Part shown: positions 23,028-61,598 of the stretch, piece after piece
Numbering within the stretch: the first letter of the stretch is position 1
Layout of the letters: each line of letters starts with the position of its first letter
Source of the DNA: a bacterium
Lineage (GTDB): Bacteria > Desulfobacterota > Deferrisomatia > Deferrisomatales > Deferrisomataceae
Length of the DNA: 61,813 nucleotides
Assembly: GCA_027021615.1 (NCBI GenBank)
Contig: JALUTY010000018.1
Span: 1 to 61,813, forward strand
Direction of reading: 5' to 3'
Notes under the pieces: model-generated
What the model saw: the letters and a program-made list of their open reading frames with translations, nothing else
Told to the model about the DNA's origin: nothing
Databases searched by the model: none
Translations under genes and position numbers: made by a program

Positions 23028-23432
23028 TCAGGGGCGGGGCTTGGCGGGCGACGGCGAGGTCCAGTCCTCCTCCCACTCCTCGTCCAGCAGCCCCTGGCGC
23101 TCCATGAACTCCATGTTCGCCTGGAGCACCCGGGCGATCACGTCCCGCTCGATGCCCCGGTTCCTCTGGATGAACGAGACGGCCACGTCCATGTCGTACC
23201 CGTCGGGGTTGCGGTCGAGGAGGTCCTCGTTCTCCCGGCGCAGCTCCTCGAACTCCCGGCGGGTGGCCTCGTCCATGATCTCGCCGTTCAGGAGTCCCAG
23301 GCAGCCCAGGTAGTCCAGCTCTCCCTCCAGGACCTGGGCGATCACCTTGAGGTCCAGACCGGTGCGCACGGCGATGTCCTCCAGCGCCGCAAACGGGTCG
23401 TACCGGGCCACCGTGTCGTCTAAAGGGCTCAC
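23028..23432 (-). CDS. Small acidic hypothetical protein
   Basis: 134 residues, unrecognised, soluble and acidic. It contains what looks like two similar halves, VIAQVLEGELDYLGCLGLL and VIARVLQANMEFMERQGLL, suggesting an internal helical duplication. GTG at 23432 overlaps the previous stop (GTGA) and follows GGAGGAG. It is the last gene of the ten-gene envelope/ABC operon, so it is presumably linked to that system, but nothing in it shows how. Confidence 0.65.
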   Translation of the reverse strand: MSPLDDTVARYDPFAALEDIAVRTGLDLKVIAQVLEGELDYLGCLGLLNGEIMDEATRREFEELRRENEDLLDRNPDGYDMDVAVSFIQRNRGIERDVIARVLQANMEFMERQGLLDEEWEEDWTSPSPAKPRP

Positions 23433-24646
23433 GGACTCTCCTCCCTCCTCAACCGGGCGGCGTACACCCGCCGCCACCGTTTCTCGGCCCGGCCGACCCC
23501 GCCCTGGGCCGTGAAGAAGACGATCACCTCACCCCCCCGCACCGTTACCCAAGGGTCGGCGTTCAGCTCGGTGCCGGTGCGGAGCAGCCGGGGTGGCGCG
23601 GTGCCCTCCCGCGGCACCCATGCCAGCGGGTTCAGGCGGTCGGCGTCGTCCAGCACCACCACGAGCCCCCGAGAGTCCGGGGTCCAGCGGGGGCCGCCCC
23701 GGGTCTCGGACAGCACCCCCCGGCACACCCGGCGGGCCCGACCTCCCCCGGCCGGCACCACGTACAGGTCGGCGGGCCGGGCCGCCTTGGTCCGAGACAG
23801 GAAGGCCACCCATCGGCCGTCGGGGGAGAAGCTGGGGGCGAGGCACGTTCCGGACCACCCGGGCGTCAGGTCCCGCAGGTGCTCCCGCAGCCGGAGCCGG
23901 CGCGAGGTCTCGTCGGTCACGGCGAGCAAGGCTCCCACCCGGTCCACCAGGTACACGTGGTCCGAGGCGCCCAGGTGACCCACGAAGGCCAGCCGGTCCC
24001 CGTCCGGGGACCAGGCCGGGTACAGCTCGGACCCGCCCGCCTCGAACGTCAGGCGCATCAGCCCGGCCGGCTCTCCCCGCAGCCGGTACACGTACAGGTC
24101 CCCCTGGCCGGTCCGGCCCGAGGTGAGCGCCACCGCGGTTCCGTCCGGGGCGAACGCGGGCTGGGCGTCGTTCTCCGGGTGCTCAGTCAGGAACACCCGG
24201 CGGCCGGGCTCCCGAAGGAACACGTCCAGGTTCACCACCCCGGTGCCCCGAACCGCGGCCTTCCGGGTGGCGGCCACCACGAGTCGGGGCCGCCCCCGCT
24301 TCGGCGGGCCGAAGCTGAGCCCCTCGCTCAAGGGACGCTCCGGTTTGAGGGCGAACGGGTCGGGCCCGGCCGCGGGCACGGCGGGCCTCGGCGGGGCCGC
24401 ACCGTCGGGCAGGGCCTCGTCCCCCTGCAATCGGGTCAGGTACACCTCGAGGGTGTCCCCGTCCGCCGCCAAGAACTCGAACCCCAGGTGGTCCCCCGGG
24501 GGATCGACGGCCAGGGCCGCGGGCTGGCCCTTGCCGTCCAGGCCCGGCAGGGGCAGGGCCTCCACGGCCTCCACCCGGTAGCCCGCCCGGACGCCGGCGG
24601 GCAGCAGAACCGCCGTGAGCAGGGCGGCCGCGAGGCGCCGGGTCAC
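23429..24646 (-). CDS. TolB-like PD40 beta-propeller, exported
   Basis: 405 residues from a GTG at 24646 that overlaps the previous stop (GTGA). A signal peptide (RRLAAALLTAVLLPAGVRAG) is followed by PD40/WD40-like repeats with the telltale phrases FAPDGTAVALTSG, WSPDGDRLAFVG, FSPDGRWVAFLS and WTPDSRGLVVVL. This is the C-terminal fold of TolB and of periplasmic propellers that act as binding scaffolds. No TolB N-terminal domain and no tol/pal genes are nearby, so true TolB is unlikely. It is probably a periplasmic partner of the operon's other exported proteins. Confidence 0.75.
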   Translation of the reverse strand: MTRRLAAALLTAVLLPAGVRAGYRVEAVEALPLPGLDGKGQPAALAVDPPGDHLGFEFLAADGDTLEVYLTRLQGDEALPDGAAPPRPAVPAAGPDPFALKPERPLSEGLSFGPPKRGRPRLVVAATRKAAVRGTGVVNLDVFLREPGRRVFLTEHPENDAQPAFAPDGTAVALTSGRTGQGDLYVYRLRGEPAGLMRLTFEAGGSELYPAWSPDGDRLAFVGHLGASDHVYLVDRVGALLAVTDETSRRLRLREHLRDLTPGWSGTCLAPSFSPDGRWVAFLSRTKAARPADLYVVPAGGGRARRVCRGVLSETRGGPRWTPDSRGLVVVLDDADRLNPLAWVPREGTAPPRLLRTGTELNADPWVTVRGGEVIVFFTAQGGVGRAEKRWRRVYAARLRREESP

Positions 24647-26427
24647 GGCCGGGCCCCCCTTTTGGCGGGGCGCGGATAGGCCCGGTAGGAGAGGTCCACG
24701 GTCAGCAGGGGCACGCGCTCGCCCCCCGCGCCCACGGCGTACACGCGCACGGGGTGGCGGGTGGCCAGAAGCGGGGTCTGCAGGCCGTCCACCTCCACGT
24801 AGGGCCGCTTCACGAGCACCTCCTTCTCCCCCACGACCACGGCGTACAGCCGCGCCCCCCGGCAGGGGTCCCAGGAGAGGGCCAGGTCGGGGAGGGTCTG
24901 GCCCATCCGGCGGCGTTTCCCAAACCGTTGGTCGGGTTCCTCGCCGGTGGCCCGGATCCACTCCGGATCCAGGATCCACCGGCCCCCTACCACAGGGATC
25001 ACGAAGTGACGCCACTGGGACGCCTCGAGGGGGTCGGCCACCTCGTAGGAGTACTCTCGGGCGAACGCGTCGCTGATCTCGCCCACGAGCTCCCCCAGGG
25101 TGCCCCGGCCCCGCTGGCGGTAGATGCGGTAGGACTGGGCCGCCGCCTCCCTGGGCAGGGTCTCCCAGTACACCACCACCAGGCCCCGGTCCACCGACTC
25201 CGCCACCTCGGCGACCCGCTCCACCCGGGCCGGGATCTCCACCTCGGCCCAAGCCGCGGCAGCCGGAGCCTCGGCCCCGGCCACCCATGCCTCGATCCGG
25301 TAGCTCACGGGGCGGGGCCGGGCCTCGGGAAGAAACGGCCCGTCCACGGCCTGGCCCTCCCGCAAGGGCTCCGGGCTGCGGCGCCGCAGGACGATCCGGT
25401 CCCCTTCGGAGCCCTCCCGCATCACCCGCACCTCGTCCACGGCTCCGTCGCCCAGGACCCACGCCACCGCCACCCGCAGGTCGTCCTGCACCTGGGCCTC
25501 GGCCGCGGCCCGCTCCACCGGGGCCAGGGTGCGGGCCGTCACGCGGCCCACCGCGGCCAGGGTCCCGTCGGCGGTGCGCACCTCGAGCCGGTAGGCGGCA
25601 TCCACCCCCACCGCCAGGCCCTGATCCCGGCACGAGGGCTCGGACCCCTCGCACACGATCACCGGGCCGTCCGGGACCTCCCGCACCAGGCGGTAGGTCA
25701 TGCCCACGAGGGGGGGCCAGGCCAGGTCCACGGTGCGCGCGCCCGCTCCCACCCGCCAAGAGGCCGGCCGAGGATAGCGGGGCACGAGCCGCAGGTCCAC
25801 CTCGTCGCCGGCCCACACCTCCAGATCCACCGCGTCCTTGGGGGCCTCCAGGGGTGTTGCCGGGTCGAAGGCGACCCGAAACCGGCCCTCGGGCACCAAC
25901 AGCACGGTGCCGGCGGGCCCCACCCCCAGTCCCCGGTCGAACAGCTCGGACAGCCGCTCCACGGCTCGGCGGCCCGCCGGGTCCAGGGCGGCAGGGTCCA
26001 GGGGGGCCATCCGGAGCCGAACCCGGTCCAGGGGCACCGCGCTGACCATGCGCACCCGGCCGAGGCCGGAGGCCTCCAGCAGGTGCTCGCGCAGGGCCGC
26101 CGCCTCGGGCCCCAGGGCTCCCTGCGCCTCCAGGCGCTCCAGGGCCCAGTAGGCCTCGGTGTGGCGGCCGGTCTGGACGTAGGCGCGGGCCGCCGCCTCG
26201 AGCCACCGGGGGTCGGACCAGGCCCGGGTGGGGTCCTCGGCCTCGGCCTGCCGCAGGCTCCGCACCGCGTCCGGACCGTAAGTGCTGCCGCGGCTCAGGT
26301 AGAACAGGGCCTGGTCGAGGGCGGCCGTGTAGCCTGCCCAGGCCGGCAGGGCCAGAAGCATCACGAGCCCGGCCCAAAGGCCGAGCTTGGCCTTGCGGGC
26401 GAACGACGATCGCTGGGTCGAACTCAC
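24643..26427 (-). CDS. Exported multi-domain protein with fibronectin-III-like modules
   Basis: 594 residues. The GTG start overlaps the dppF-like stop. A signal peptide (KLGLWAGLVMLLALPAWAG) leads to a short helical, TPR-like start (about 35-115), then beta-sandwich segments that read like FN3 modules (for example RTVDLAWPPLVGMTYRLVRE and DLALSWDPCRGARLYAVVV). No catalytic motif is seen. Position between the ATPase gene and the propeller gene suggests a periplasmic or surface component of the same system. Domain naming is tentative. Confidence 0.6.
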   Translation of the reverse strand: MSSTQRSSFARKAKLGLWAGLVMLLALPAWAGYTAALDQALFYLSRGSTYGPDAVRSLRQAEAEDPTRAWSDPRWLEAAARAYVQTGRHTEAYWALERLEAQGALGPEAAALREHLLEASGLGRVRMVSAVPLDRVRLRMAPLDPAALDPAGRRAVERLSELFDRGLGVGPAGTVLLVPEGRFRVAFDPATPLEAPKDAVDLEVWAGDEVDLRLVPRYPRPASWRVGAGARTVDLAWPPLVGMTYRLVREVPDGPVIVCEGSEPSCRDQGLAVGVDAAYRLEVRTADGTLAAVGRVTARTLAPVERAAAEAQVQDDLRVAVAWVLGDGAVDEVRVMREGSEGDRIVLRRRSPEPLREGQAVDGPFLPEARPRPVSYRIEAWVAGAEAPAAAAWAEVEIPARVERVAEVAESVDRGLVVVYWETLPREAAAQSYRIYRQRGRGTLGELVGEISDAFAREYSYEVADPLEASQWRHFVIPVVGGRWILDPEWIRATGEEPDQRFGKRRRMGQTLPDLALSWDPCRGARLYAVVVGEKEVLVKRPYVEVDGLQTPLLATRHPVRVYAVGAGGERVPLLTVDLSYRAYPRPAKRGARP

Positions 26428-27407
26428 CGTGGGTTCTCGCTCCCGGAGGTTCTGCGGTGACAGGCCACTCGGTGGGCCGAACCCACCGCCCGAAGAGTGG
26501 GGGGCATTCTAGCACACGGCCCGTCGGGTTCCGCGAGGGCCTCGGCGCACCGGCTGGAGAACGGGCACCCAGTCAGGGGGGGCTCGGAGAACGGCCGGGT
26601 CGGGCCTGCCACGGCCTCTGCCACCCCGAAGGCACTCGTCAGGAGCTCCCGGGAGTACGGGTGGAGGGCGCCGCCTCCGAAGAAGACCCGGGCCGGGGCG
26701 TCCTCGACGAGCCGGCCCCGGAACAGCACCAGCACCCGGTCGACCAAGGTGCGCACCACCCGGAGGTCGTGGGTCACCAGGAGCACGGTCAGGCCCCTGC
26801 GCCGGTGGATTCGGCGCAGCAGGGCCACCAGCTGCTCCTGGATCGGGGGGTCCAGCCCGGCCACGGGCTCGTCGGCCACCACGAACCGGGGCCGAGTGGC
26901 CAGGGCTCGGGCAAACGCCACGCGTCGCCGCTCCCCACCCGACAGCTCCGGCGGGAAGGCGTCGAGGCGTTCAGGGGGAAGGTGGACCGTTTCGGCCAGC
27001 CGCTCCACCTCGGCCCGCACGGCGGACCGGGGCAGGCGTCGGTGGATCCGCACGGCCTCGGCCAGGAGGAACCGAACCCGGAACGCGGGGTTCAGGGTGG
27101 CGTAGGGGTTTTGGAACACCATCTGTGCCGTGCGGGCGAACTCAGCCCGGCGGCCCCAACCCAGCCGGGCCGGGTCGTACCCCCCTACCCGGACCCCACC
27201 CCGTTCGAACCGGGTGAGCCCCACCAGACACCGGCCGAGGGTGGTCTTGCCCGACCCGGACTCCCCTACCAGTGCGGCGAACTCGCCGGGTTCCAGGGCA
27301 AACGACACCCCCCGCACGGCCGGGACCGGAGGGCTGCGTCCCAGGGCGGTTCCGGCCGGCCGAAACGTCTTGTGGAGATCACGTACCTCCACCCCCACGC
27401 CGCTCAC
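26424..27407 (-). CDS. Peptide/oligopeptide ABC transporter ATPase, DppF/OppF type
   Basis: 327 residues from GTG 27407 (GTGA overlap with the upstream gene). Walker A GESGSGKTT, signature LSGGERRRVAFARALA, Walker B FVVADEPVAGLD and H-loop THD are intact. The C-terminal oligopeptide-family extension with paired cysteines (CPFSSRC and PC) is present. It is one of two ATPases driving the Dpp-like importer. Substrate is not predictable from the sequence; dipeptides, nickel or other small molecules are known for the family. Confidence 0.9.
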   Translation of the reverse strand: MSGVGVEVRDLHKTFRPAGTALGRSPPVPAVRGVSFALEPGEFAALVGESGSGKTTLGRCLVGLTRFERGGVRVGGYDPARLGWGRRAEFARTAQMVFQNPYATLNPAFRVRFLLAEAVRIHRRLPRSAVRAEVERLAETVHLPPERLDAFPPELSGGERRRVAFARALATRPRFVVADEPVAGLDPPIQEQLVALLRRIHRRRGLTVLLVTHDLRVVRTLVDRVLVLFRGRLVEDAPARVFFGGGALHPYSRELLTSAFGVAEAVAGPTRPFSEPPLTGCPFSSRCAEALAEPDGPCARMPPTLRAVGSAHRVACHRRTSGSENPR

Positions 27408-28447
27408 CCCTTCACCTCCCAGCAGGCGATCCCGTGATCGGGGTCCACCCGGACCCAGGGCGGCTCCTCGGCCCGGCACCGGCTCCGGGTGCGGCTGCAC
27501 CGGTCCGCGTAGGGGCAGGCGCCGGCCGGGCCGGCCTGGGGGCGGGCCGAAGGCGGAGCCTTCCAGCCTGCCAGCACCTGCTCGGCCTCCAGCAGCATCC
27601 GGGTGTACGGGTGCTTGGGCGTCCCGCCCGGATCGAGGACCTTGCCTGCCGGCCCGTTCTCCACCACCCGCCCTCCACACAGCACCGCCACCCCCTCGCA
27701 CAGCAGGCGGGCAGCCTCGGTGTCGTGGGTGATCAGCAGCAGGGTGGTACCGGCCGCGTCCCTCGCTCGGATCAACAGGTGGAGCACCCGGACCCGTAGG
27801 GTGGCGTCGAGGCCGGTGGTGGGCTCGTCGGCCACCAGCAGGGCCGGCCCGGGGGCCAGGGCCAGGGCCAGGGCCACCCTCTGGGCCATGCCGCCCGAAA
27901 GCTCGTAAGGGTGCTGCCGGGCCACCTCGCGGGTCCGGTACATGCCCACCCGCGCCAGGTGATCGAGCCCGGCCTCCAGGGCCTCGGCCCGGGTCAGGCC
28001 CGGATCCCGCCGTCGGACCGCCCGCACGAGAAGGTCGCCCACCGTGGCGTAGGGAGGGAACGCCGTGGCCGGGTCCTGGGGGACCAGGGTCACCTCTCGG
28101 CCCAGCACCGAGGCCACCCGCCGCCGGAGCCGGCGGTTCCAGGTGCGCACGTCCTTGGCCGCCCGGTCGGGGGATTCGGGGGACCAGGCCACCGTCCGGT
28201 TGAGGCCGGCGAACAGGTCCAGGTGCAGGACCCGGGCCGTGCCGGCCACCACCCCGGGCACCGCGTCGGACAGGCCAAGCACCGAGTGGAGCAGGAGGGT
28301 CTTTCCCGACCCCGACTCGCCCAGCAGGCCGAACGGCTCGCCGGCCCGCACCTCAATGTCGACCCGGTCGAGCACCCGGCGCAGTGACCGGCCGGCCTCC
28401 AGGGCCACGACCAGGCCGCGAATTCCCAGCAGCACGGGGGCGCTCAC
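27404..28447 (-). CDS. Peptide/oligopeptide ABC transporter ATPase, DppD/OppD type
   Basis: 347 residues. GTG 28447 follows GGAGGAG and overlaps the permease stop. Walker A GESGSGKT, signature LSGGMAQRVALALALA, Walker B LLVADEPTTGLD and a C-terminal Cys-rich oligopeptide extension (CPYADRC, CRAEEPPW) are visible. The region between Walker A and the Q loop carries an extra stretch (about residues 65-105, including WSPESPDRAAKDVRTWNRRL) compared with most DppD proteins. It pairs with the DppF-like ATPase. Confidence 0.9.
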   Translation of the reverse strand: MSAPVLLGIRGLVVALEAGRSLRRVLDRVDIEVRAGEPFGLLGESGSGKTLLLHSVLGLSDAVPGVVAGTARVLHLDLFAGLNRTVAWSPESPDRAAKDVRTWNRRLRRRVASVLGREVTLVPQDPATAFPPYATVGDLLVRAVRRRDPGLTRAEALEAGLDHLARVGMYRTREVARQHPYELSGGMAQRVALALALAPGPALLVADEPTTGLDATLRVRVLHLLIRARDAAGTTLLLITHDTEAARLLCEGVAVLCGGRVVENGPAGKVLDPGGTPKHPYTRMLLEAEQVLAGWKAPPSARPQAGPAGACPYADRCSRTRSRCRAEEPPWVRVDPDHGIACWEVKG

Positions 28448-29295
28448 CGGGGCTCCTCCACGGCCTCCAGGAGCCCCCGGCCCAGGAGGCTGAGACCCAG
28501 GAGGGTCAGCGACAGCATCACAGCGGGCGCCAGGGCCGGGAGCCAGTGCCCCCGGAACACCCCGTCGCGGGCCAGCGCGAGCATGTTGCCCCAGCTCGCG
28601 GCAGGCTCCTGAACCCCCAGCTCGCCCCCCAGGTACGAGAGGCTGGCCTCGGCCAGCACGGCGAACGAGAGCAGGCTGGTGGCCTGGGCCAGCAGCACCC
28701 GGCGGGCGTGGCCCCAGAGGATATGCACGAGCACGACCCGGCCCGGACCCACGCCCAGGCCCCGGGCCGCCTCGATGAACGCCAGGGAGCGCAGCCTCTC
28801 GATGCTCGACCGGATCGGCTCGGCCACCTGGGGCGCGAACGACACCCCCACGGCCGCCATGATCCAGTCCAGGTCGCTCTGGGTCACCGCGGCCACCAGG
28901 AGCACCGTGACCAGCTTGGGGACCCCGTCCACCGCCTGGGCGAGGCCCGTGGCCAGGGCGTCCCCGGGCCCGGGCAGGAGCCCCTCGGCCAGGCCCAGGG
29001 CCACACCGGCGACCCCTCCCACGGCCACGGCCAGAAGGGCCGGGCCGGCGAACCGGGCCGCGGCCCAGGCGAGCCGGGCCGCCAGGTCCCGACCGAGTGC
29101 GTCCGCCCCGAGCCACAGGTCCGGGCCGGGAGGGGCGTGGGCCGGGGCCACGAAGGCGGTGGGGTCGTGGGGGAGCCAACCCAGCAGCCCCAAAGCGGCC
29201 CCAAGCACGGTGGGGATCAGGCACGCGGTTCCGGCCGCCAGGGCCAGGCGGGCCGCGGCAGGGCCGCCCCGGGGGAATCGCGTCGGCTTTCCCAT
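28444..29295 (-). CDS. ABC transporter permease, DppC type
   Basis: 283 residues with about six membrane helices. An N-terminal helix and a periplasmic loop with LGADALGRDLAARL, typical of DppC/OppC, are present. The EAA-like loop FIEAARGLGVGPGRVVLVHI contacts the ATPases. The ATG overlaps the dppB-like stop (TGATG); a GTG one codon upstream is possible. Inner-membrane partner of the DppB-like subunit. Confidence 0.9.
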   Translation of the reverse strand: MGKPTRFPRGGPAAARLALAAGTACLIPTVLGAALGLLGWLPHDPTAFVAPAHAPPGPDLWLGADALGRDLAARLAWAAARFAGPALLAVAVGGVAGVALGLAEGLLPGPGDALATGLAQAVDGVPKLVTVLLVAAVTQSDLDWIMAAVGVSFAPQVAEPIRSSIERLRSLAFIEAARGLGVGPGRVVLVHILWGHARRVLLAQATSLLSFAVLAEASLSYLGGELGVQEPAASWGNMLALARDGVFRGHWLPALAPAVMLSLTLLGLSLLGRGLLEAVEEPR

Positions 29296-30254
29296 CACGG
29301 AGCCTCCCCGCCGGTACGGGGGTCGGCCCAGCGCCGCACCAGCTCGGCCAGAAGCCCGGCCGTCCGCACCACCACGGCCATGAGCACCGCCGCACCCAGC
29401 AGGAGCGGCAGGTCCCGCTGGGCCGCGGCGCGCCATGCCAGGTATCCCAGCCCCGGCCACCCCAGAGCCGCCTCGAGGATGACGGTGGAGCCCAGGACGA
29501 ACGAGACCCGCCGGGACAGGTGGGCCGCCAGGCCGGGTAGGGCCTCCCTCACCCGCACCTCCCAATCGGGGATGCCGAGCAGCCGCGCGCCGGCGCGGTG
29601 CTCCACGGCGCGGGCCGCCCTCCACTCGGCCTGGGTCCGGCGGAACAGGTCTGCCAGTAGGCCGTCGCCCACCGCCAGGATCAGGGCGGCCGCAATCCAC
29701 GGCACCCAGTCGTCCCGGCTCGGGAACGGGAACCACCCGGGCCGGTCCCACCAGTCCGCCCGGATCCCGGCCCCCACGAGGCGGTTTCCGGCCAGGGTGG
29801 TCAGGTACACCAGCAGGAACACCGGAAGGGCCGACACCAGGTGGGCCGCGGCCGACAGGGCAGACGCGGGTCCCGGATCGGACCAGCGGGAGCGGATCAG
29901 GGTGAGCCCGGCCGAGAGAAGGGAGGAGAGGGCCAGGCCCGCGGCCGCCAGGCCCAGGGAGCGACGCAGCCCGGCAAAGACCAGGTCGGAGACGGGCCGG
30001 CCCTGCTGTACCGCCGTGGATCGGCCCAGATCGCCCCGGACCACCCCGGCCAGCCACTCGGAGTAGCTGGGCAGGCCCTCGGCCGGCCGGGCCCCGGCCG
30101 GAGCGGCGGCCACCACCCGGCCGTCCGGACCGGCGTGGGGAGCCAGGCGTGCCACGGCGTAGAGGACGGCGCTGGTGCCCAGCAGGACCAGGAGGGCGCC
30201 GGCCGTCTGGCGCAGGGTCCACCAGGCCAGGGAGAGGGCCGGCCGCGGGGTCAC
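29295..30254 (-). CDS. ABC transporter permease, DppB type
   Basis: 319 residues. The GTG at 30254 overlaps the binding-protein stop. The layout is DppB-like: first helix, a large periplasmic loop with YSEWLAGVVRGDLGRS, then the permease core with an EAA-like loop (ARLLGIPDWEVRVREALPGL) and a terminal helix. The EAA region is more diverged from consensus than in the DppC-like partner, so substrate may differ from classic dipeptides. Confidence 0.85.
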   Translation of the reverse strand: MTPRPALSLAWWTLRQTAGALLVLLGTSAVLYAVARLAPHAGPDGRVVAAAPAGARPAEGLPSYSEWLAGVVRGDLGRSTAVQQGRPVSDLVFAGLRRSLGLAAAGLALSSLLSAGLTLIRSRWSDPGPASALSAAAHLVSALPVFLLVYLTTLAGNRLVGAGIRADWWDRPGWFPFPSRDDWVPWIAAALILAVGDGLLADLFRRTQAEWRAARAVEHRAGARLLGIPDWEVRVREALPGLAAHLSRRVSFVLGSTVILEAALGWPGLGYLAWRAAAQRDLPLLLGAAVLMAVVVRTAGLLAELVRRWADPRTGGEAP

Positions 30255-31780
30255 CGTTCCTTCCAGGACCCCACGTAGGAGAAAAAGTAGAACGGGTGGA
30301 GCCGGACGTTGTCGATCCGGGTGGACACGGCCGCATACCGGTTGAGGCTCCACAGGAACAGGTACGGCAGGTCGTCGTGGAGGATGCGGTGGAGCTCGCC
30401 GTAGGCCGCCCGCAGGGACTCGGAGTTGGTGGCCCCACGGGTCTGATCCAGAAGCCGGTCCACCTCGGGGTTCGCATAGGCACCCAGGTTGTTCCGGCCC
30501 GGCCCGGTCTCGGCCGAGTGGAACAGGGAGTAGATGTTCACGCTGTGGTCAAAGGTCCACTCGGCCAGCACCAGGTCGAAGTCGTGGTCCTGGAACACCG
30601 CCTTGCGCCAGGCCGACGGCTCCAGGAACTTCACCTCGACCCCGATGCCCAGGCCCTTCAGCTGCTGCTGGAGGTCCAGTACGACAGCCTTCTGGGCCTC
30701 GCTGGCCGCCAGGGACACGAGCCGAAGCCGGACGGGCTCTCCGTCCTTCTCCCGGATGCCGTCGCCGTCGGAGTCGGTGAGCCCTGCCTCGTCCAGCAGC
30801 CGAGCCGCGGTGTCGGGCTCGTGGGGCCAGGGCTTGACGTCGAAGTTGTACGCCCACGAGGCCGGCGGGAACGGCCCGGAGATCACCACACCCCGACCCC
30901 CGTAGTGGGCCTTGAGCATGGCCTCCCGGTCGATGCCCCGGGCCAGGGCCCGGCGGACCCGCAGGTCCCGCAGCAGGGGGTTGCGGAAGTTGATGCCCAC
31001 GAAGGCGTAGGACAGTGTGCTGTAAGGGTACAGGCGGATGCCCGAGAGCTCCTCCAGCACCGGGATGTCCCGGGGCCGGACCCGAGGGATCAGGTCCACG
31101 GCGCCGTACCGCAGCAGCTCGTTGCGGATGTTGTCGTCGGGCACCGGCGAGGCCTCCACCTCCCGGATGCCCGGCTGGCCCGGCCGGTGGTAGTCGGGGT
31201 TGGCCTCGAACCGGATCTCCCCCGAGGGCGCCCACTCCCGGAACCGAAACGGGCCGGTGCCCACGGCCGACGGGTCTCCCCCGGCGAGCCTGCCGTCGGG
31301 GAACCGGTGGGCCGGAAGGATCCGGAAGTCGAACAGGAGGACGGGGTTGGCCGAGGGGTGGGCCAGCCGGAACCGCACGGTGTGGTCGTCGAGGGCCTCC
31401 ACCGACTCGAAGGCCGCGAACTGGCTGTGCAGGGGCGAGGCGTTCGCCGGGTTCCGGCCGGCCTCCACCGTGAACACCACGTCCCGGGCCGTGAACGGCC
31501 TGCCGTCGTGCCACCGCACCCCCCGCTTCAGGTAGAACGTCACGGTGCGGCCGTCGGGGCCCACGTCCCACCGCTCGGCCAGCAGGGGGCGCACCTCCCC
31601 CGCGTCTGGGGGGGTGAGGAGCCCTTCATACACCAGCTCCGACGCGCGCACGCTGGGCATGTCCCGGGCCAGCAAGGGGTTCAGGGTGGACGGGGGCGTG
31701 CTCTCGGCATACCGCAGCCCGGCCGAGGCGTTCGCGGCCAGGCCAACCACCAGGAATAGGGCGATGACGTGGCGGATCAT
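30251..31780 (-). CDS. Periplasmic substrate-binding protein, SBP family 5
   Basis: 509 residues with a signal peptide (MIRHVIALFLVVGLAANASA) and no lipobox, so it is soluble in the periplasm. Family 5 features include STPPSTLNPLL, LAERWDVGPDGRTVTFYLKRGVRWHDG near residues 65-92 and RRALARGIDREAMLKAHYGG near 285. These proteins capture peptides, metals or other ligands for the DppBCDF-like importer encoded directly downstream. Ligand is not predicted. Confidence 0.9.
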   Translation of the reverse strand: MIRHVIALFLVVGLAANASAGLRYAESTPPSTLNPLLARDMPSVRASELVYEGLLTPPDAGEVRPLLAERWDVGPDGRTVTFYLKRGVRWHDGRPFTARDVVFTVEAGRNPANASPLHSQFAAFESVEALDDHTVRFRLAHPSANPVLLFDFRILPAHRFPDGRLAGGDPSAVGTGPFRFREWAPSGEIRFEANPDYHRPGQPGIREVEASPVPDDNIRNELLRYGAVDLIPRVRPRDIPVLEELSGIRLYPYSTLSYAFVGINFRNPLLRDLRVRRALARGIDREAMLKAHYGGRGVVISGPFPPASWAYNFDVKPWPHEPDTAARLLDEAGLTDSDGDGIREKDGEPVRLRLVSLAASEAQKAVVLDLQQQLKGLGIGVEVKFLEPSAWRKAVFQDHDFDLVLAEWTFDHSVNIYSLFHSAETGPGRNNLGAYANPEVDRLLDQTRGATNSESLRAAYGELHRILHDDLPYLFLWSLNRYAAVSTRIDNVRLHPFYFFSYVGSWKER

Positions 31781-31811
31781 GGGGTGTGAGACTCCTTCGT
31801 GTGGCGAGGGC

Positions 31812-33335
31812 TCACCGGGGCGGGACCCCTCCTCCGCTCCGGGACGCGTACAGGCGCTTCATGCTCTCGTAGGCCAGGCGGGCCGACGGGTACTCCCGGG
31901 TCAGGTCGAACAGGATCGCCACGGCCGGGGCGAACTGTCCGGCCCGGGCGTAGGCCCGAGCCAGATCGGCCAGGAACGCCGGGGGGTTGCGGAAGTCCGG
32001 ATGGGCCCCCTGGCCCTTCTGCTGGGCCGCGTCGAGCACCTGGAGCGCCTCGGTGTCGAGGCCCCGGGCCCACAGGGCCCGGGCGGCCCACCGGGCCACC
32101 TCGGCCCGGCGCACGGCGTACAGCTCCGCCACGGCGGCCGACTCGGGGCCCGGCGGCAGGCGGTCGGGCAGCCGTTCCACGGCCCGCACCGCGGCCCGGG
32201 CCGACTCCACAGGGTCTCCCAGCGGCTCGGACAGCCCGAGCTCGGCCTGGAGCCCGGCCAGCACGGCCAGGGTCAGGGGGCTGGGCTCGCCGCCGGCCAC
32301 CTTGCGCCACAGGCCCAGGCCCTCGACCCCCCGACCCGCCCGGAGCAGGGCCGCTCCGGCCCGGACCCGGCCCACCTCCGTGGCCTCCGCCGCGCCGTGG
32401 ACGGGGCTGAACAGCCACGGCGCCGGTCCCGTCCGGGCCGGGGGGGAGGCCACGTAGCTCGACGCGGCCTCGTCCCAACGGTTCTGGGCCTCGAAGCCCC
32501 GGCCCCCCCAGTAGGGAGACGGAATCTGTGCGGCTCCGTTGGCCGCCAGCCCGCCAAAGCCCCGTTCCAGGAGCTCGTACAGAAACAGGTCCGCGCCGGG
32601 GCCTTCGCCCACCCGGTTGAAGTCGATCATCTCCAGGGCGAGCACGCCGCTGGCCAGGTCGCCCTGCCGGAACGCGTCCAGGGCCTGCCCGTAGGGGCTG
32701 CGGTCGCCCGTGGGGCACGGCACGCCCCACAGGTAGCAGGCCACCAGGCCCAGGACCTTGTCCGTCTCGGTCTCGGGAGGGGGAGCCTGCCGGGCAAGCA
32801 CCCGGACCCGGTCCATGTTCCCCTCCCAAAACGCGATGCCGGCCCGAGCCAAGGCCGCCGGGTAGCTGCCGGCTTGGCCCTTCCGGGCCCCGAACACCGC
32901 CCGGGCCTCGGCCAGGTTCCCCCGCCGGAGGGCCACCCAGCCCTTGCGCTCCACGAGGCCCCGGTCACCGGAGGGGGCTCGGCTCAGGTAGAGGTGCTCC
33001 GTCTCGAGGAACAGGTCGTCCATCGCCCCGTACAGGTCGGAGAACGCCTGGTAGGTGCGCACCAGGCCGGGGCCGAGGGGGCCGGCGGAGAACACCTGGA
33101 TCGCGTCGTACAGCCGCATGTCCCGCAGGGCACGCCAGCCGTCCCCGCCCGAGAGGAGCCGGGCGATCTCCGGATCCTTCCGGGCGTACCGGCCCATCCA
33201 CCCCTCCTGGCAGGCGCGCACCTCGGGGTCGGAGCCGGAGGCCTGGCCGGCCCGGCCCTCGGGGGCCTGGGTGCAGGCGATCCCCAGGGCCAGGAGGAGC
33301 AGGCTAGCCGCCCAGCTTGGTCGCCAGGTACTCAA
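31812..33335 (-). CDS. TPR-like lipoprotein of the ABC operon
   Basis: About 507 residues. The reading frame enters from inside the PEGA gene, so the start must lie near its end. TTG 33335 is the best in-frame candidate, giving a signal peptide with lipobox LGIAC at about residue 20. Helical repeats follow (for example RKGWVALRRGNLAEARAVFG and LARAYARAGQFAPAVAILFDL), consistent with TPR-like superhelical packing. The start is uncertain and its ribosome site is weak, which fits translational coupling. Probably a protein-protein adaptor at the outer or inner membrane. Confidence 0.7.
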   Translation of the reverse strand: MSTWRPSWAASLLLLALGIACTQAPEGRAGQASGSDPEVRACQEGWMGRYARKDPEIARLLSGGDGWRALRDMRLYDAIQVFSAGPLGPGLVRTYQAFSDLYGAMDDLFLETEHLYLSRAPSGDRGLVERKGWVALRRGNLAEARAVFGARKGQAGSYPAALARAGIAFWEGNMDRVRVLARQAPPPETETDKVLGLVACYLWGVPCPTGDRSPYGQALDAFRQGDLASGVLALEMIDFNRVGEGPGADLFLYELLERGFGGLAANGAAQIPSPYWGGRGFEAQNRWDEAASSYVASPPARTGPAPWLFSPVHGAAEATEVGRVRAGAALLRAGRGVEGLGLWRKVAGGEPSPLTLAVLAGLQAELGLSEPLGDPVESARAAVRAVERLPDRLPPGPESAAVAELYAVRRAEVARWAARALWARGLDTEALQVLDAAQQKGQGAHPDFRNPPAFLADLARAYARAGQFAPAVAILFDLTREYPSARLAYESMKRLYASRSGGGVPPR

Positions 33336-34914
33336 GGTTCCGGCGGTGGCGCCGGGCTCGCTCGACCCACTCCGGCGCCATGGCGTCCGGGGCCTGCTCC
33401 AGGCGGGCAAAGAACACCTGCCAGGCCTGGGCCCCCTTCTGGATGAACCGGGCCTCTCCGGTCTCTTGGAACAGACGCTCACTGGTCACCCCCAGGTAGT
33501 AGTAGGCTTTCAGAAGGAGCGGCTGACGCCGGCCCGCCGGTAGAAGCTCCGGGGTGGACACGGCCCGTTCCAACGCCTTGGCTCCCTGACGCAGAAGGGC
33601 TACGGCCTCCCCCGGGTCGGCCTGCCGGGCGGCCTGCCAGCACCAGTACCCCAGGGCCAAATTGAGGGCGGGGTTTCGGCCCGTCTCCGGCCGGGCCACC
33701 AGCTCGGCCAGGACCGGCGGAATCTCCCGGACCCGGCCCGCCCGGGCCAGCAGGTCCACCACCTGGACTCGGGCCCGGGCGAAGCTGGGGTGGTCCGGCG
33801 GCACCCGCCCCAGGAACCCCAGGGCCTCCTCGATCTGCCCCCGCTCGATCAGCTTCTGGGCGTTGGCGTAGCTCTCGTCCACCGGCGGGATGCGCAAGGG
33901 GCGGTCCCGGAAGTCCTCCACGTCGTCCCGGAACGGCACCGTGACCTCCAGGGGCGTGTACCCTGGCCGCTCGGCCGGGTCGAAGACCAGCCGAAGCCGG
34001 TGGAGCCCCTTGGGAGCCCGGAAGCCCAGGCCGTCCTTGCCGGCCCGTCCGATCTCCCGGCCATCCAGCCACACCCGGGCGCCGGGGGGGTCGGTGTAGA
34101 GCCGCACCGAGCTGTCGTTGCGCACGGGCACGAGGGCCGCGATCACGGTGGTGGTACGGCCGTTGGTCACCACCACGTCGTCGCGCTCCCAGGGGCGGTA
34201 ACCTTCGAGCTCCACCCGGACCCGGTGCACCCCGGGGGCCACCGGCTCCACCCGTAGGGGCCCCTGGGCTGCCCCCCGGGGCTCGTCGTCCACGAGCACC
34301 TGCCCGCCGTCCGGGCTGGACACCACGAGGAGCGCCCCGTCCTCCGGGGCCAGGGTGAGGGCGACCTCCTGGCCGGCGGCGGCGGGGACCACCTCCACGG
34401 CGGCCTCGGCGGGCTGGAACCCCTGCTTGGTCGCCCGGATCACGTGGCGGCCGGCCTGTAGGGGGACCTCCAGGGGGGCCAGGCCCACGGGCTTGCCGTC
34501 CACCTCCACCCGGGCGTCGGCCGGGTCGGTGGTCACGGCCACGAGCCCGATCCCGATGCCGGCCTCCTCGTCCAGGTCCACGAAGATCCGGCCGCCGGGG
34601 CCCTCCAGGGTCTGGCGGAACGCACCCTTGCCCGGCAGGTACAGGATCACCTCGTGCTCTCCCTCACCCAGGTCCCGCACGTACAGGGGGGTGGTGCCCT
34701 TCTCCTCCCCGTCCACGAACACCCGGGCCCCCTCGGGCCGGGACAGGATCGACAGCACCCCAGGCTCTCCCGCCTCCCGCTGGTATGTGGCCGGGTTCTG
34801 GAGGACCTCGTCCGAGCCGGGGGACGAGCCCCCCTCCACGGCCCCTGCCCAGGGGGGCGATGGGGGGGCGAACGCGACCACGCCGAGCAACAGCAGCAGC
34901 CAGATCTGTTTCAT
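33304..34914 (-). CDS. PEGA-repeat exported protein with C-terminal helical repeats
   Basis: 536 residues. The ATG at 34914 follows GAGGAACCCC and starts a signal peptide (MKQIWLLLLLGVVAFA). Four successive PEGA domains (about residues 50-330) show the pattern ARVFVDGEEKGTTPL, ARVEVDGKPVGLAPLEVPL, GQVLVDDEPRG and ARVWLDGREIG. The remaining ~200 residues are TPR-like helices. PEGA domains are beta-sandwiches of surface and envelope proteins. First gene of the ten-gene operon; overlaps the next gene by 32 bases. Confidence 0.8.
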   Translation of the reverse strand: MKQIWLLLLLGVVAFAPPSPPWAGAVEGGSSPGSDEVLQNPATYQREAGEPGVLSILSRPEGARVFVDGEEKGTTPLYVRDLGEGEHEVILYLPGKGAFRQTLEGPGGRIFVDLDEEAGIGIGLVAVTTDPADARVEVDGKPVGLAPLEVPLQAGRHVIRATKQGFQPAEAAVEVVPAAAGQEVALTLAPEDGALLVVSSPDGGQVLVDDEPRGAAQGPLRVEPVAPGVHRVRVELEGYRPWERDDVVVTNGRTTTVIAALVPVRNDSSVRLYTDPPGARVWLDGREIGRAGKDGLGFRAPKGLHRLRLVFDPAERPGYTPLEVTVPFRDDVEDFRDRPLRIPPVDESYANAQKLIERGQIEEALGFLGRVPPDHPSFARARVQVVDLLARAGRVREIPPVLAELVARPETGRNPALNLALGYWCWQAARQADPGEAVALLRQGAKALERAVSTPELLPAGRRQPLLLKAYYYLGVTSERLFQETGEARFIQKGAQAWQVFFARLEQAPDAMAPEWVERARRHRRNLEYLATKLGG

Positions 34915-35295: not shown

Positions 35296-36498
35296 TCATG
35301 GGTTCAGGCGTGGGCCGGCCCCCTGTGGGACCACCTCGGCGGGGCCCAGGGTCAGGTGTTGGGCCAGGTCCAGGTCCAGGTCCGGAACCGGTTCGCCCGC
35401 CAGGTCGATCCGCTCCACCCGGATCGGGGGCACCCGGTTCTCCCGGTAGCTCTCGGCCGACACCCGGGCCCGCCCCACCGAGTACCCCTTGCGGTACGCG
35501 AACACCTGGTAATCGCCGCCGAACAGGGGCCGGTCGGCCGGCTCCCCCTCCCCGGGTGTGAGCACCTTCCTGCGGGAGATCCGAAACGCCCCTGCCTCGT
35601 CGGACAGCACCTCCATGGTGTAGGGCGAGGTCCATACCTCCATCCCCGCCAGCGGCGCCCCCCGCTCGTCCCGAACCTCGCCCACCAGAACGGTGGGGGT
35701 GACCCGGACGGGGATGTCCGCCTGGACCTCGGCGAACGAGTCGGCCGGGAGTTTCACCTTCACCTGGCGGGCCTTCTGGAACCGGGGGTCCTTGATGCCG
35801 AGGTCCAGCTTCACGGCCACGGGAAGCTTGGGGATCCCCTCGATTCGGAACCTGCCGGTGTCGTCGGTGCGGGCGATCACGAACCGGTCGAGCTTGATCA
35901 GCACCTGGCCCAGGGGCAGGTCTCGGTCCACGGTCTCGGCCAGCCGGACCCGACCCTCCAGGGTGGTGCCCGGGAACGTGGGGTAGCTCTCTTTCATCTT
36001 CAGTCGAAACACCTCCCGGGCGATCCGGGGCCGGTACTTGCTCCTGGGGAAGAACCCGAGGAACTCCAGGTAGGTCGGGACTCGGTTGGTACGGATCACC
36101 CGGGCCGCGGCCTCGCGCTCGGACTCCCGGGCCAGCCGGTCGCCGGAGGACACCGAGAACCGTCCCGCCGGCTTGAGCAGGTACACGCCCTTGTCCAGCT
36201 CCCGCTCGACCACCGCCTTGCCCACCCTGCGCATCCCCTGGCCGAACACCACCATCCACTCCCGGGGCTTGGCCCCCCCCGGGATCTCGGCCACCACCGG
36301 CCCCCCTCGGGAGAAGATGACCGTTCCGACAAACACGTCCTTGCCCCTTCTCGGACGCGTCGCCGGCCGGGGTCGTGAACTCTCGGGGGCCAGCAGGACG
36401 GGTTTCCTGACCTTGATGGCGGTGTCCCCCCGTACCGGGATGGCGACCATGGCGGTCGCCAGAAAGAGGGTCACTGTGATCCTTCGCAAACCACCCAT
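35296..36498 (-). CDS. Exported protein with carboxypeptidase-regulatory-like modules
   Basis: 400 residues from ATG 36498 (after GGAGGAGG) with a signal peptide (RRITVTLFLATAMVAIPVRG). A basic stretch (about 45-70) precedes beta-sandwich modules that read like CarboxypepD_reg/Cna-B (IARTDDTGRFRIEGIPKLPV, VGEVRDERGAPLAGMEVWTS and SDEAGAFRISRRKVL). No enzyme motif is present. Probably a periplasmic or outer-membrane protein. It may belong with the PEGA/ABC operon downstream on the same strand, but the repeat-filled gap separates them. Divergent from the 35-heme cytochrome gene. Confidence 0.65.
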   Translation of the reverse strand: MGGLRRITVTLFLATAMVAIPVRGDTAIKVRKPVLLAPESSRPRPATRPRRGKDVFVGTVIFSRGGPVVAEIPGGAKPREWMVVFGQGMRRVGKAVVERELDKGVYLLKPAGRFSVSSGDRLARESEREAAARVIRTNRVPTYLEFLGFFPRSKYRPRIAREVFRLKMKESYPTFPGTTLEGRVRLAETVDRDLPLGQVLIKLDRFVIARTDDTGRFRIEGIPKLPVAVKLDLGIKDPRFQKARQVKVKLPADSFAEVQADIPVRVTPTVLVGEVRDERGAPLAGMEVWTSPYTMEVLSDEAGAFRISRRKVLTPGEGEPADRPLFGGDYQVFAYRKGYSVGRARVSAESYRENRVPPIRVERIDLAGEPVPDLDLDLAQHLTLGPAEVVPQGAGPRLNP

Positions 36499-36545: not shown

Positions 36546-36575
36546 CTGATAGCACAAACCATGCCGGGCGTCCAA
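36546..36575 (-). promoter_or_regulatory. Candidate promoter for the exported modular protein
   Basis: On the minus strand TTGGAC (36575-36570) is followed after 17 or 18 bases by CTATCA or TATCAG, about 50 bases before the ATG at 36498. Motif match by eye. Confidence 0.35.
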
Positions 36576-36877: not shown

Positions 36878-39694
36878 ATGCACGCGTCCCCCGGCACACG
36901 CCCCCCTACCAGCGGGAAGCTTCGGGCCCTGGCGGTGGGGCTGGGCTTTCTGTGCGGAGCGCTCCTCCTCCCCCGTCCCGGAGGAGCCGGGGAGATCGAC
37001 ATCCTCGCCCCGGTGGACGGCTCGGTGGTGAAGGAAGACTCTCTGCTCATCCTGGGTACGGCGCCCCGGGGCAGCCAAGTGTCCTGGTCCGTGCGGAGCG
37101 TCTCGGGCGTGCTCGAGGACTCCGCACGGGCGGACTGGGGCGACCTGTTCGAGATCTTCGTGCTGCTGGACCCCGGGCTCAACGAGTTCCGGATCGGCGA
37201 CCGACGGGTTCGGGTGTTCTACGACGACGGGACCCGAGAGCCGCCCGAGGGGTTCCGGCCCGTGCAGGTGCACGCGGGCGACGTGTCCCGGTGCTCCGAC
37301 TGCCACGATCGGCTGAGCATGGAGCTGCTCGAGGGGGGCTACCCCGGCGTGTGCCTGGCCTGCCACGTGGTCGTGTCGGTGAACCCCGCCAACCAGGGTC
37401 CGGCCACGGACACCCCCCACTTCCGGAAGGCCGTGGTGCGGTGCGGCCGGTGCCACGAGCCCCATGCCTCCCTGGACCCCAAGCTGCTCCGCAAGCCCGG
37501 CCCGGACCTGTGCCGGTCGTGCCATCCCGAGCGGACGGTGTCGGCCGGATCCCACCCGGTGCTGGCCGAAGAAGGGTGCTCGGCGTGCCACGATCCCCAC
37601 TACTCGGGGTACCCCAACGACCTCCACAAGCCCCAACCCGGCCTGTGTCAGGACTGCCACGATCAGGGCGGGGGGGAGCGGGAGGGCCTCCACCCGCCCC
37701 AGGTGGCCGAGCGGTCCTGCTCCACCTGCCACGATCCCCACGGCGACCAGCCTGGCCTCCTGCGCTCGGAGATGCCGGACCTGTGCCTGGGCTGCCACGA
37801 AGGGGTCATGGGCCAAGGCCATGGCGACGCACTGGCCGAGTGCTCCCGCTGCCACGACCCCCACGGCCGCACCGACAGGGGGCTGCTCGAGGACGGGGTG
37901 AGCCCCAAGTGCCTCGAGTGCCACGGGGGGATCGACCAGGGCCAGACGGTCCACCCAGCCCTGGAGGAAGGGTGCCAGGTCTGCCACGACCCCCATGCCG
38001 ACGACAGCGTGGGGCAGGCCAGGACCTCCTGTGGCAGATGCCACGACCTCCAGGGAGACGAGGAGCTGGGGGCCCTCCACGGAGGGCTTTCGATCCCGGT
38101 CGAGGCGTGTCTGCGCTGCCATCCGGCCCACGCGGCCCAGGGGAGCCGGCTCGTCCGGGGGCGACTCCATCCCCCTCTGGCCAAGGGCAAGTGCACGGTG
38201 TGCCACGGCGGTGGGGCGGACCGGAGCGTCCGGATCGAGAACCCCGCGGCCCGCTGTCGCATGTGCCACTCGTTCGAGAAGGACCTGCGGGCCGCCGGGG
38301 CCAGGGTGCACGCTCCGGTGGCCGGGGGCGAGTGCACGGCCTGCCACGACCCCCACATGTCGTCGGAGCCCGCGTTCCTGCGGGGACCCCAGCCCGGGGT
38401 GTGCGGCCGGTGCCACGAGGAGGCCCGGGTGGGGCCCGGCCGGCAGCGTCACCCGGCGGCCGAGACCTGCACCGACTGCCACGGGGCCCACGGCGGGCGG
38501 GGGCCGGCGTTCCTGCGCTCCCGGCCGCCCGGGCTGTGCCTCGGCTGCCACGACGATCCCACCGAGGGGCTGGAGGACCCCCACCCCGCTCTGGCGGAGG
38601 GGTGCCTCGTGTGCCACGATCCTCACCAAGGGTTCCGGCCGGGGTACCTGAAGGGCGACACCCCGTGGGCGGCCTGCCAGGAGTGCCATGGCGTGCCCAA
38701 TCTCTCCGAGGACCGCACGCTCCACTCCGCGGCCGAGACCTGCACGGTCTGCCACGACCCCCACGGCCGGGGCGGCGCCCGGTACCTGGCCTCGCAGCCG
38801 CCGGAGCCGTGTCTGGAGTGCCACGACGATCCGGCCGAGGGGGTTGAGGACCCCCACCCCGCGCTGGCGGAGGGGTGCCTCGTGTGCCACACCCCCCACG
38901 CCGGGTTCGGGGGGGCGAACCTGGTGAAGCCCCAGCGGGAGCTGTGCCTCGGCTGCCACGACGATCCGGCCCGAGGGGCTCCCCGGGTCCACGCCCCGGC
39001 GCGGGACCGGTGCTCCGGGTGCCATGACCCCCACGGCGACGCATCCGCAGCCCTGTTGAAGGACGGGCGCCCCGGCTTGTGCCTGGGCTGTCACGCGCTC
39101 CAGGCGCCGGCCGCCGACCGGCCGGCGCACCCGCCCGCGGCCGAGAGCTGCACCAACTGCCACGAGGACGCCCCCCACGGGGGCACTTCGCCCCAATTCC
39201 TCCCGAAGACCCCGCCGGAGCTGTGCCTGGAGTGCCACGACGACCCTCGCCAGGGGGCCCAGGCCCTGCACCCGGCCCTGGCGGAGGGGTGCCTCGTGTG
39301 CCACGACCCCCACCGGGGAACCCGGCCGGGGTTCCTGCGGGGCGCCGATGCCAACGGCCCCTGCCTGGACTGCCACGAGGTGCTGACCGGTAAGCCCGTG
39401 CGGCACGCTGCCCTGGACCAGGGGTGCACGGTGTGTCACGATCCCCACCGTGCGGATGCCGAGCGCCAGCTGCGCAGGCCCGGCAACGCCCTGTGCCTGG
39501 ATTGCCACGACCTGACCGGGCATGCTCACACCGTGGATGCGACCCGGGGGAGGCGCTTTCCCAGGGCACGAGGGTTCCCCATGGACGGGGAGCAGTACCT
39601 GTGCACGGGATGCCACGCCCCCCACGAGGCGGAGGACAAGGGGCTGCTCGTCCGGCCCCGCGGGATGCTGTGCCAGGAGTGTCACCGGATCTGA
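36878..39694 (+). CDS. 35-heme c-type cytochrome, doubled-CXXCH type, exported
   Basis: The ATG at 36878 begins a signal peptide (LRALAVGLGFLCGALLLP); GGAAGG lies 10 bases upstream. The 938-residue product has a ~100-residue heme-free beta domain (ILAPVDGSVVKEDSLLILG) and then 35 CxxCH heme sites in about 800 residues. Many are followed by DPH, giving CxxCHDPH, and they alternate as in doubled-CXXCH (paired c3-like) cytochromes. The density, about one heme per 23-26 residues, suits a long electron wire. Probably periplasmic or extracellular electron transfer (inference from heme load). A histidine kinase and NtrC-type regulator follow. Confidence 0.85.
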   Translation: MHASPGTRPPTSGKLRALAVGLGFLCGALLLPRPGGAGEIDILAPVDGSVVKEDSLLILGTAPRGSQVSWSVRSVSGVLEDSARADWGDLFEIFVLLDPGLNEFRIGDRRVRVFYDDGTREPPEGFRPVQVHAGDVSRCSDCHDRLSMELLEGGYPGVCLACHVVVSVNPANQGPATDTPHFRKAVVRCGRCHEPHASLDPKLLRKPGPDLCRSCHPERTVSAGSHPVLAEEGCSACHDPHYSGYPNDLHKPQPGLCQDCHDQGGGEREGLHPPQVAERSCSTCHDPHGDQPGLLRSEMPDLCLGCHEGVMGQGHGDALAECSRCHDPHGRTDRGLLEDGVSPKCLECHGGIDQGQTVHPALEEGCQVCHDPHADDSVGQARTSCGRCHDLQGDEELGALHGGLSIPVEACLRCHPAHAAQGSRLVRGRLHPPLAKGKCTVCHGGGADRSVRIENPAARCRMCHSFEKDLRAAGARVHAPVAGGECTACHDPHMSSEPAFLRGPQPGVCGRCHEEARVGPGRQRHPAAETCTDCHGAHGGRGPAFLRSRPPGLCLGCHDDPTEGLEDPHPALAEGCLVCHDPHQGFRPGYLKGDTPWAACQECHGVPNLSEDRTLHSAAETCTVCHDPHGRGGARYLASQPPEPCLECHDDPAEGVEDPHPALAEGCLVCHTPHAGFGGANLVKPQRELCLGCHDDPARGAPRVHAPARDRCSGCHDPHGDASAALLKDGRPGLCLGCHALQAPAADRPAHPPAAESCTNCHEDAPHGGTSPQFLPKTPPELCLECHDDPRQGAQALHPALAEGCLVCHDPHRGTRPGFLRGADANGPCLDCHEVLTGKPVRHAALDQGCTVCHDPHRADAERQLRRPGNALCLDCHDLTGHAHTVDATRGRRFPRARGFPMDGEQYLCTGCHAPHEAEDKGLLVRPRGMLCQECHRI
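38591..39304 (+). repeat. 27-base identical repeats inside the cytochrome gene
   Basis: Three identical 27-base copies at 38,591-38,617, 38,864-38,890 and 39,278-39,304, beginning CTGGCGGAGGGGTGCCTCGT and encoding the LAEGCLVCH heme site. They lie in a two-heme unit of about 90 residues that seems to have been duplicated recently. Confidence 0.7.
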
Positions 39695-57601: not shown

Positions 57602-57610
57602 ACCGAGTTG
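57573..57610. repeat. Perfect 19-base tandem duplication at the P8 edge
   Basis: GGGAGTTCATACCGAGTTG occurs twice in a row (57,573-57,591 and 57,592-57,610). The unit contains the element's terminal repeat, so the duplication lies at its boundary and at the BtuF-like start codon. Confidence 0.9.
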
Positions 57611-57868
57611 CGATCAAATCGAGAGCCCCCGAGCCGGGGCAAGGGACCTGCCTCCGGCCGGGCGCGAAGCCAGGCATTGAGATTCGCCGCGCAGGCACGG
57701 GACGGCGGAGCTGGCTTCATGGCTACCCGGTGGAATCCGTACCATTTCGCAGTCCAAACGCCGGAAGCGCTACGCGGCGAGCCAAGGGGCCGCGCCCGGC
57801 TCTCCGACAGGCCCCTTGCCCCTCCGAGCAGGGGCCTAATAGCTTTAAAGGCAAGTTGGTATCAGAAC
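57592..57868. repeat. Palindromic element P8 (full length, inside the B12 operon)
   Basis: Terminal repeats: left GTTCATACCGAGTTGCGAT, right end reading GTTCTGATACCAACTTGCC on the other strand. Matching arms GGGGCAAGGGACCTG and (other strand) GGGGCAAGGGGCCTG follow. It separates the propeller lipoprotein gene from btuF-like; the right end overlaps the lipoprotein stop codon. Confidence 0.8.
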
Positions 57869-58998: not shown

Positions 58999-59028
58999 GG
59001 TCTTCTCCTCCTTCTTGGGGGGACGGGG

Positions 59029-61059: not shown

Positions 61060-61099
61060 CGGCTCCTCTCGAAACCGAGCCCCGGATGGGGCGACGAAA

Positions 61100-61131
61100 A
61101 AAGCCCGCACGCCATGGACGGCGTGCGGGCT
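61100..61131 (-). terminator. Terminator of the cobalamin riboswitch
   Basis: AAGCCCGCACGCC and GGCGTGCGGGCTT form a 13-bp hairpin followed on the minus strand by TTTT, located between the riboswitch and the btuB-like ATG. Ligand-dependent premature termination is the likely mechanism. Confidence 0.8.
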
Positions 61132-61565: not shown

Positions 61566-61598
61566 CTCGGGAAATGCACGACCTTGCGGAGCGTGACA

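Follow-up and report, generated by a model that had tools for sequence, protein, structure and literature searches.

A Dpp/Opp-type importer operon conserved with exported repeat proteins beside a giant multihaem cytochrome gene in the Deferrisomatales

ATP-binding cassette (ABC) importers of the Dpp/Opp type, such as Escherichia coli DppABCDF and Bacillus subtilis App, comprise a solute-binding protein of family 5 (SBP5), two permeases, and two ATPases with oligo_HPY ends and four C-terminal cysteines. In E. coli, the cysteines of the DppD [4Fe-4S] site are spaced Cx5Cx6Cx17C (PMC12136057), and the scoop motif of DppB, in its N-terminal periplasmic stretch, is probably needed for dipeptide import. 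The same set of components is encoded by ten minus-strand genes, running from position 34914 down to 23028, on contig C18 (JALUTY010000018.1, positions 1 to 61,813, the whole stretch being the window analysed here) of the Deferrisomatales genome G000 (GCA_027021615.1; 4.25 Mb, 97.8% complete). Unlike the described importers, the conserved unit to which these genes belong adds five accessory proteins, exported or lipidated, and one small helical protein, and it falls under every NCBIfam equivalog cut-off, with strongly diverged permeases, a DppB scoop stretch that is degenerate in most orthologues, and a binding protein that is its most conserved member.

A second point of comparison is provided by the cytochrome loci of metal reducers, in which large CxxCH cytochromes adjoin exported FN3-type proteins and prolyl isomerases. 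Members of Deferrisoma are established Fe(III) reducers and carry other porin-cytochrome genes (PMC6137239). In G000 a locus that looks like an extracellular-cytochrome cluster (L099, G000:C122:122000-138000) carries two PPIC-type prolyl isomerases, a 581-amino-acid (aa) FN3-match protein, and a series of CxxCH proteins with 8 and 5 haems; L100 in G003 is a near copy. The block described here likewise sets a large CxxCH cytochrome beside a set with an exported FN3-type protein, but unlike L099-type loci it has no prolyl isomerase and has a complete ABC importer, none being seen at L099 or L100.

Gene order and conservation of the block

The operon, with the adjoining genes that were found to be conserved with it, consists of:

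36878..39694, plus strand: exported multihaem cytochrome, 938 aa, 35 CxxCH in doubled-CXXCH repeats (PF09699, E 6e-130); divergent from the operon
35296..36498, minus strand: reg400, exported CarboxypepD_reg-like protein, 400 aa (PF13620 above cut-off); first gene of the conserved block
33304..34914, minus strand: exported PEGA-TPR protein, 536 aa, four PEGA domains (PF08308, E 1.8e-44) and a helical TPR-like C-terminal part; orthologues at 41-91% identity
31812..33335, minus strand: TPR lipoprotein (PF14559), lipobox LGIAC; the TTG start at 33335 is a best guess
30251..31780, minus strand: SBP5, periplasmic solute-binding protein family 5, 509 aa (PF00496, E 3.7e-86), with a hydrophobic N-terminus in the sequence
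29295..30254, minus strand: DppB-type permease (PF00528), N-terminal periplasmic scoop stretch degenerate
28444..29298, minus strand: DppC-type permease (PF00528), NCBIfam Opp4C/Opp2C-like, under the equivalog cut-offs
27404..28447, minus strand: DppD-type ATPase (PF00005, PF08352), Walker, signature and H-loop motifs intact, Cx5Cx6Cx17C C-terminus
26424..27407, minus strand: DppF-type ATPase (PF00005, E 1.7e-25), motifs intact, four C-terminal cysteines
24643..26427, minus strand: exported helical-FN3 protein, 594 aa, helical (TPR-like) N-terminal part and tandem FN3-like domains; full length in this order only
23429..24646, minus strand: exported PD40 beta-propeller protein, 405 aa (PF07676, E 5e-21), TolB-like but not TolB
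23028..23432, minus strand: small all-helical acidic protein, 134 aa, without a signal peptide

A preliminary description of the window had read the ten genes from PEGA-TPR to the small helical protein as an operon wrapping a Dpp-type importer in PEGA, TPR, FN3-like and propeller proteins, nearly all of them overlapping by a few bases, and this reading was borne out. All ten genes lie at the coordinates it gave, and the domains were assigned by Pfam and NCBIfam (four PEGA, TPR, SBP_bac_5, two BPD_transp_1, two ABC_tran with oligo_HPY ends, and PD40), the FN3-like part being recovered in an AlphaFold2 model. Seven of the nine junctions overlap by 4 nucleotides (nt), the first two being a 32 nt overlap (PEGA/TPR) and a 31 nt gap (TPR/SBP5), with gene starts taken as best guesses.

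Using 11 other Deferrisomatales genomes from four families (f1-f4), with all genome comparisons made in one phylum, the block was found in the same order in every genome, in some of them split at contig ends, and the cytochrome was seen in 10. The conserved order is cytochrome (divergent), reg400, PEGA, TPR, SBP5, DppB, DppC, DppD, DppF, FN3 and PD40, followed in three families by the small gene, which was not found behind PD40 in family f4. The unit therefore exceeds ten genes, adding reg400 and the divergent 35-CxxCH cytochrome and, in three families, a two-component pair (39749-42308). The suggestion that the carboxypeptidase-regulatory-like gene upstream may belong was upheld, reg400 being conserved in place with the block. 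Seven genomes hold the main block on one contig; it is split at contig ends in G004, G005 (the full set lying across three contigs), G010, and G011, in which the contig ends after PEGA and neither reg400 nor the cytochrome was found. G001 was considered as a genome without the operon and rejected, the cytochrome, reg400, PEGA and the TPR start standing at a contig end, an assembly gap.

Outside the genus, block proteins share 33-71% identity. Orthologues of SBP5 (63-96% identity) were found in 10 of the 11 genomes, the best long match outside the order in the same sample being ~37%, and those of FN3 and PD40 had the same distribution. Junctions from SBP5 onward are mostly 1-4 nt overlaps in f1-f3, with tight spacing throughout. 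The window's flanking RecQ and glycosylase genes adjoin the block only in G002, of the same genus, so the conservation of the block is not mere genome-wide synteny, and chance adjacency is ruled out by order-wide conservation with changing flanks. Three other SBP5 loci were examined (two in G000, one in its close relative G002) and have no such extra genes. There is good support for the genes being a single selected unit.

Profiles run over 395 genomes of the phylum confined full-length FN3, TPR lipoprotein and reg400 relatives to the Deferrisomatales, and a single scan of genome contigs for the FN3 protein, using strict peptide patterns, found one locus, in this order. One homologous operon was found in another family, in G073 (L158:3-10500, contig C81), with the order CarboxypepD-PEGA-TPR fusion, PD40, TPR, SBP5, DppB, DppC, DppD and DppF. 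Its SBP5 has 42% identity, and homology of the accessory proteins was established by profile alignment (PD40, E 1.6e-34; PEGA, E 3.2e-10; TPR, E 3.2e-8). G073 is the only one of 24 genomes of its family with such an operon, and searches of its family, class and phylum found no further G073-like operon; horizontal transfer, perhaps from an unsampled lineage, is possible. Overall, the linkage of PEGA, SBP5 and PD40 that had been proposed as a check on the preliminary description held in all other sampled Deferrisomatales and, rearranged, in G073, and the extra genes were clearly not unlinked from the ABC genes among the relatives but are conserved constituents of the importer operon.

The importer and its probable ligand

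In its catalytic parts the importer is canonical, and its SBP_bac_5, two permeases and two ATPases place it in the Dpp/Opp family by sequence. Both ATPases keep Walker A, signature (LSGG), Walker B (DEP) and H-loop (HD) motifs in the window and in all orthologues, and both have four C-terminal cysteines, with the spacing of E. coli exact in DppD and wider in DppF, whose oligo_HPY match (22.6 bits, E 1.4e-4) is under the 27.1 cut-off. DppB matches a canonical DppB of G000 at 24% identity. Between the first membrane helix and the GDLG motif, where the scoop lies in E. coli DppB, its sequence is shortened or scrambled in the majority of orthologues, all but deleted in G073, and canonical-looking in G007. 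The NCBIfam dipeptide equivalogs were missed throughout (bits scored versus cut-off: DppA, 126.7/1005; DppB, 23.4/590; DppC, 52.9/483; DppF, 162.7/660). Annotation as a canonical Dpp system was rejected as insufficient, the equivalog cut-offs being missed and the other SBP5 loci being separate.

SBP5 is the best-conserved gene of the locus. Between genera and families its identity is 63-71%, against 40-53% for DppB, 53-62% for DppC, 46-58% for DppD and 53-65% for DppF; at a canonical Dpp locus compared between G000 and G003, each of the five proteins is 79-87% identical. Because SBP5 is held at 63-71% across families and DppB to DppF at 40-65%, its higher conservation suggests a conserved ligand with a freer translocator. 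The nearest solved chain is the B. subtilis oligopeptide protein AppA (1xoc), and in a W-x-x-D stretch of SBP5 Asp411 is invariant.

These family assignments would also fit an ordinary nutrient importer of dipeptides or oligopeptides, with housekeeping envelope genes in the operon by happenstance and no tie to the cytochrome. Asp411 points the same way, as it may match what we take to be the residue of OppA/DppA that holds the peptide amino terminus. This account is nonetheless improbable, since the other SBP5 loci in G000 and G002 go without the extras, the accessory proteins are order-specific and not housekeeping, and the block is kept while its flanks change and is rearranged yet retained in G073. 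The importer is most likely dedicated to a specific peptide-like ligand, serving a cytochrome-bearing envelope, as judged from these sequence comparisons.

The cytochrome and the exported proteins

The divergent multihaem cytochrome, together with an NtrC/sigma54-type control element, is the strongest functional clue at the locus and was missed by the preliminary description. Cytochrome orthologues beside the operon carry 23-35 CxxCH motifs. Among remote matches to the FN3 protein in the phylum sample, 10 of 24 fall inside a multihaem cytochrome gene or no more than 2 kb from one, the match at L099 in G000 among them; in 80 kb around control SBP5 loci there was no such gene. No paper connecting a peptide ABC importer with multihaem cytochromes or with extracellular electron transfer was found in a literature search of incomplete coverage, a result that is weak evidence of novelty.

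The 35 haem sites of the neighbouring cytochrome raise the prospect of an importer for haem or haem peptides, recovering cofactor from the turnover of the giant cytochrome or supplying it; DppA-type binding proteins do bind haem and serve haem uptake in Mycobacterium tuberculosis (PMC6751184). Set against this are the covalent binding of c-type haem, the oligopeptide protein AppA as nearest solved relative, and the absence from the block of genes for a haem receptor or for cytochrome maturation, and haem salvage is accordingly judged unlikely.

The exported proteins are built largely of repeats. The lipobox cysteine of the TPR lipoprotein (Cys21) is invariant in 10 orthologues. Pfam made no FN3 call on the helical-FN3 protein; in its AlphaFold2 model (mean predicted local distance difference test score [pLDDT], 85.7) a helical N-terminal region leads into tandem beta-sandwiches, and the top Foldseek matches in the PDB are tandem FN3 proteins. 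The exported PD40 propeller resembles TolB of the Tol-Pal system, an identity that was rejected on the TolB model (73.6 bits versus a cut-off of 343), and Pfam and NCBIfam found no Pal, TolQ, TolR or TolA among the block's other proteins. The small protein has no Pfam or NCBIfam match, and its structural model (pLDDT, 80.6) has no PDB fold match. The distance from reg400 to PEGA is 23-34 nt in two genera and 172-549 nt in several genomes. Extra reg400-like genes lie off-locus in G005 (L145:7400-8716) and G004 (L146:9624-10640), with no adjoining cytochrome or ABC gene.

TPR, beta-propeller and carboxypeptidase-regulatory-like modules also make up the lipid-anchored PorE of type IX secretion (PMC7192894), a likeness of domain set alone. 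It makes a scaffold role for the exported proteins plausible, by analogy, and prompts a reading in which they serve mainly as scaffolding for secreting or assembling the cytochrome, with the importer just recovering peptides from signal-peptide or substrate processing. Unlike PorE, the modules here stand in separate exported proteins, OmpA_C is not seen, and PEGA and FN3 proteins are added. A Pfam search limited to the block proteins found no match to OmpA_C, the peptidoglycan-binding domain, or to a type IX core gene, and no part of the block is more constant between the order and G073 than the importer; of the alternatives weighed here this reading is the least probable.

Apart from the block, the window holds a 490-aa multihaem protein with 8 CxxCH (434-1906), positionally unrelated to the operon, and a single open reading frame of 2228 aa (2495-9181) with a lipoprotein-like start, AAGCGGGGGG. 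As read from the sequence, 54874-61811 encodes an ABC ATPase, a membrane permease and a binding protein resembling cobalamin/iron-type uptake, adjoining a lipoprotein-like gene and a likely TonB-dependent receptor.

Control of the block and its proposed role

Three further features lie between and beyond the divergent genes:

39749..40879, plus strand: PAS-HisKA-HATPase histidine kinase with no evident membrane segment; conserved here in f1-f3
40872..42308, plus strand: NtrC-type response regulator (receiver, Sigma54_activat, HTH_8); conserved here in f1-f3
36550..36566, minus strand: sigma54-like element YGGCAYNNNNTGTGCTA, a 17-nt island ~60 nt upstream of reg400

The island stands amid otherwise poorly aligned DNA in six genomes (G000, G001, G002, G003, G004 and G007), with A instead of Y as its first base in two. 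Its exact pattern occurs once each in G000, G002, G003 and G007, twice in G004, and is absent from G006; a close variant in G005, GGCACGGATTGTGC, came from a one-mismatch search in which two to three chance matches are expected and is weak alone. The element matches the GG-N10-GC spacing of sigma54 promoters and includes a near-palindrome, GCAC-N5-GTGC, and may instead be an operator. The NtrC-type pair and the element co-occur in f1-f3, and the f4 locus has neither. In G005 the kinase and regulator are located after the cytochrome. In G006 the pair beside the cytochrome is absent, and a different NtrC-type pair (L073:4601-6689; 31-38% identity) lies a few kb past the PD40 end. In G004 the cytochrome gene has a sigma54-like site of its own, which is not conserved and was set aside.

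An adjoining kinase and regulator, a conserved and nearly unique element, and a binding protein more conserved than its permeases are also what a sensing circuit might present, in which an imported signal peptide is read by the soluble PAS kinase or the small helical protein and sets cytochrome expression through the NtrC-type regulator. The f4 locus lacks kinase, regulator, element and small protein yet retains the rest, and the PAS kinase may sense redox state instead; such a circuit therefore appears doubtful.

The working proposal, held with middling confidence, is that the Deferrisomatales block is one functional unit of a giant cytochrome, exported scaffold-type proteins, and a dedicated Dpp/Opp-type importer, for which we infer complex formation, a ligand, a physical tie to the cytochrome, and regulation. 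The exported repeat proteins (CarboxypepD-like, PEGA-TPR, TPR lipoprotein, helical-FN3 and PD40) would build a scaffold of the periplasm and outer membrane around or beside the cytochrome. Within that compartment SBP5 would gather one particular small ligand, most likely a peptide or peptide-like molecule, which DppBCDF would import using ATP. In three of the four families, the PAS kinase and NtrC-type regulator would activate the operon through a sigma54-type promoter upstream of reg400. A stronger form, in which SBP5, scaffold and giant cytochrome are one envelope-spanning machine and ligand import is a requirement for, or a readout of, the assembly or activity of the cytochrome, is tentative and rather unlikely. 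Of the earlier idea of an undescribed envelope-spanning uptake or sensing system, the conserved unit is borne out, and a single envelope-spanning complex, or a particular role in uptake or sensing, is conjectural.

Several observations weigh against this proposal. The cytochrome link is seen only within the order; no cytochrome is visible in G073, where the contig starts inside the PEGA gene, and orthologue counts from one clade and one outlier are not independent events. The association of FN3 with cytochromes covers only 10 of the 24 remote matches, and FN3 domains are widespread. The block has no gene for an outer-membrane porin or for secretion, reg400 may be a separate transcript where its gap to PEGA is 172-549 nt, and the sigma54-like element reads GTGC, not TTGC, in its -12 half.

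Because its genes always sit with five exported scaffold-like proteins, beside a giant cytochrome, the arrangement suggests that the importer is part of cell-surface electron machinery and not an ordinary feeding pump. An automatic annotation as 'dipeptide transporter' can mask a distinct system. For the secretion, assembly and regulation of giant multihaem cytochromes in iron reducers, this strictly conserved block of 11-12 genes, which joins one such cytochrome to a peptide-type importer and five scaffold proteins, names concrete candidates.

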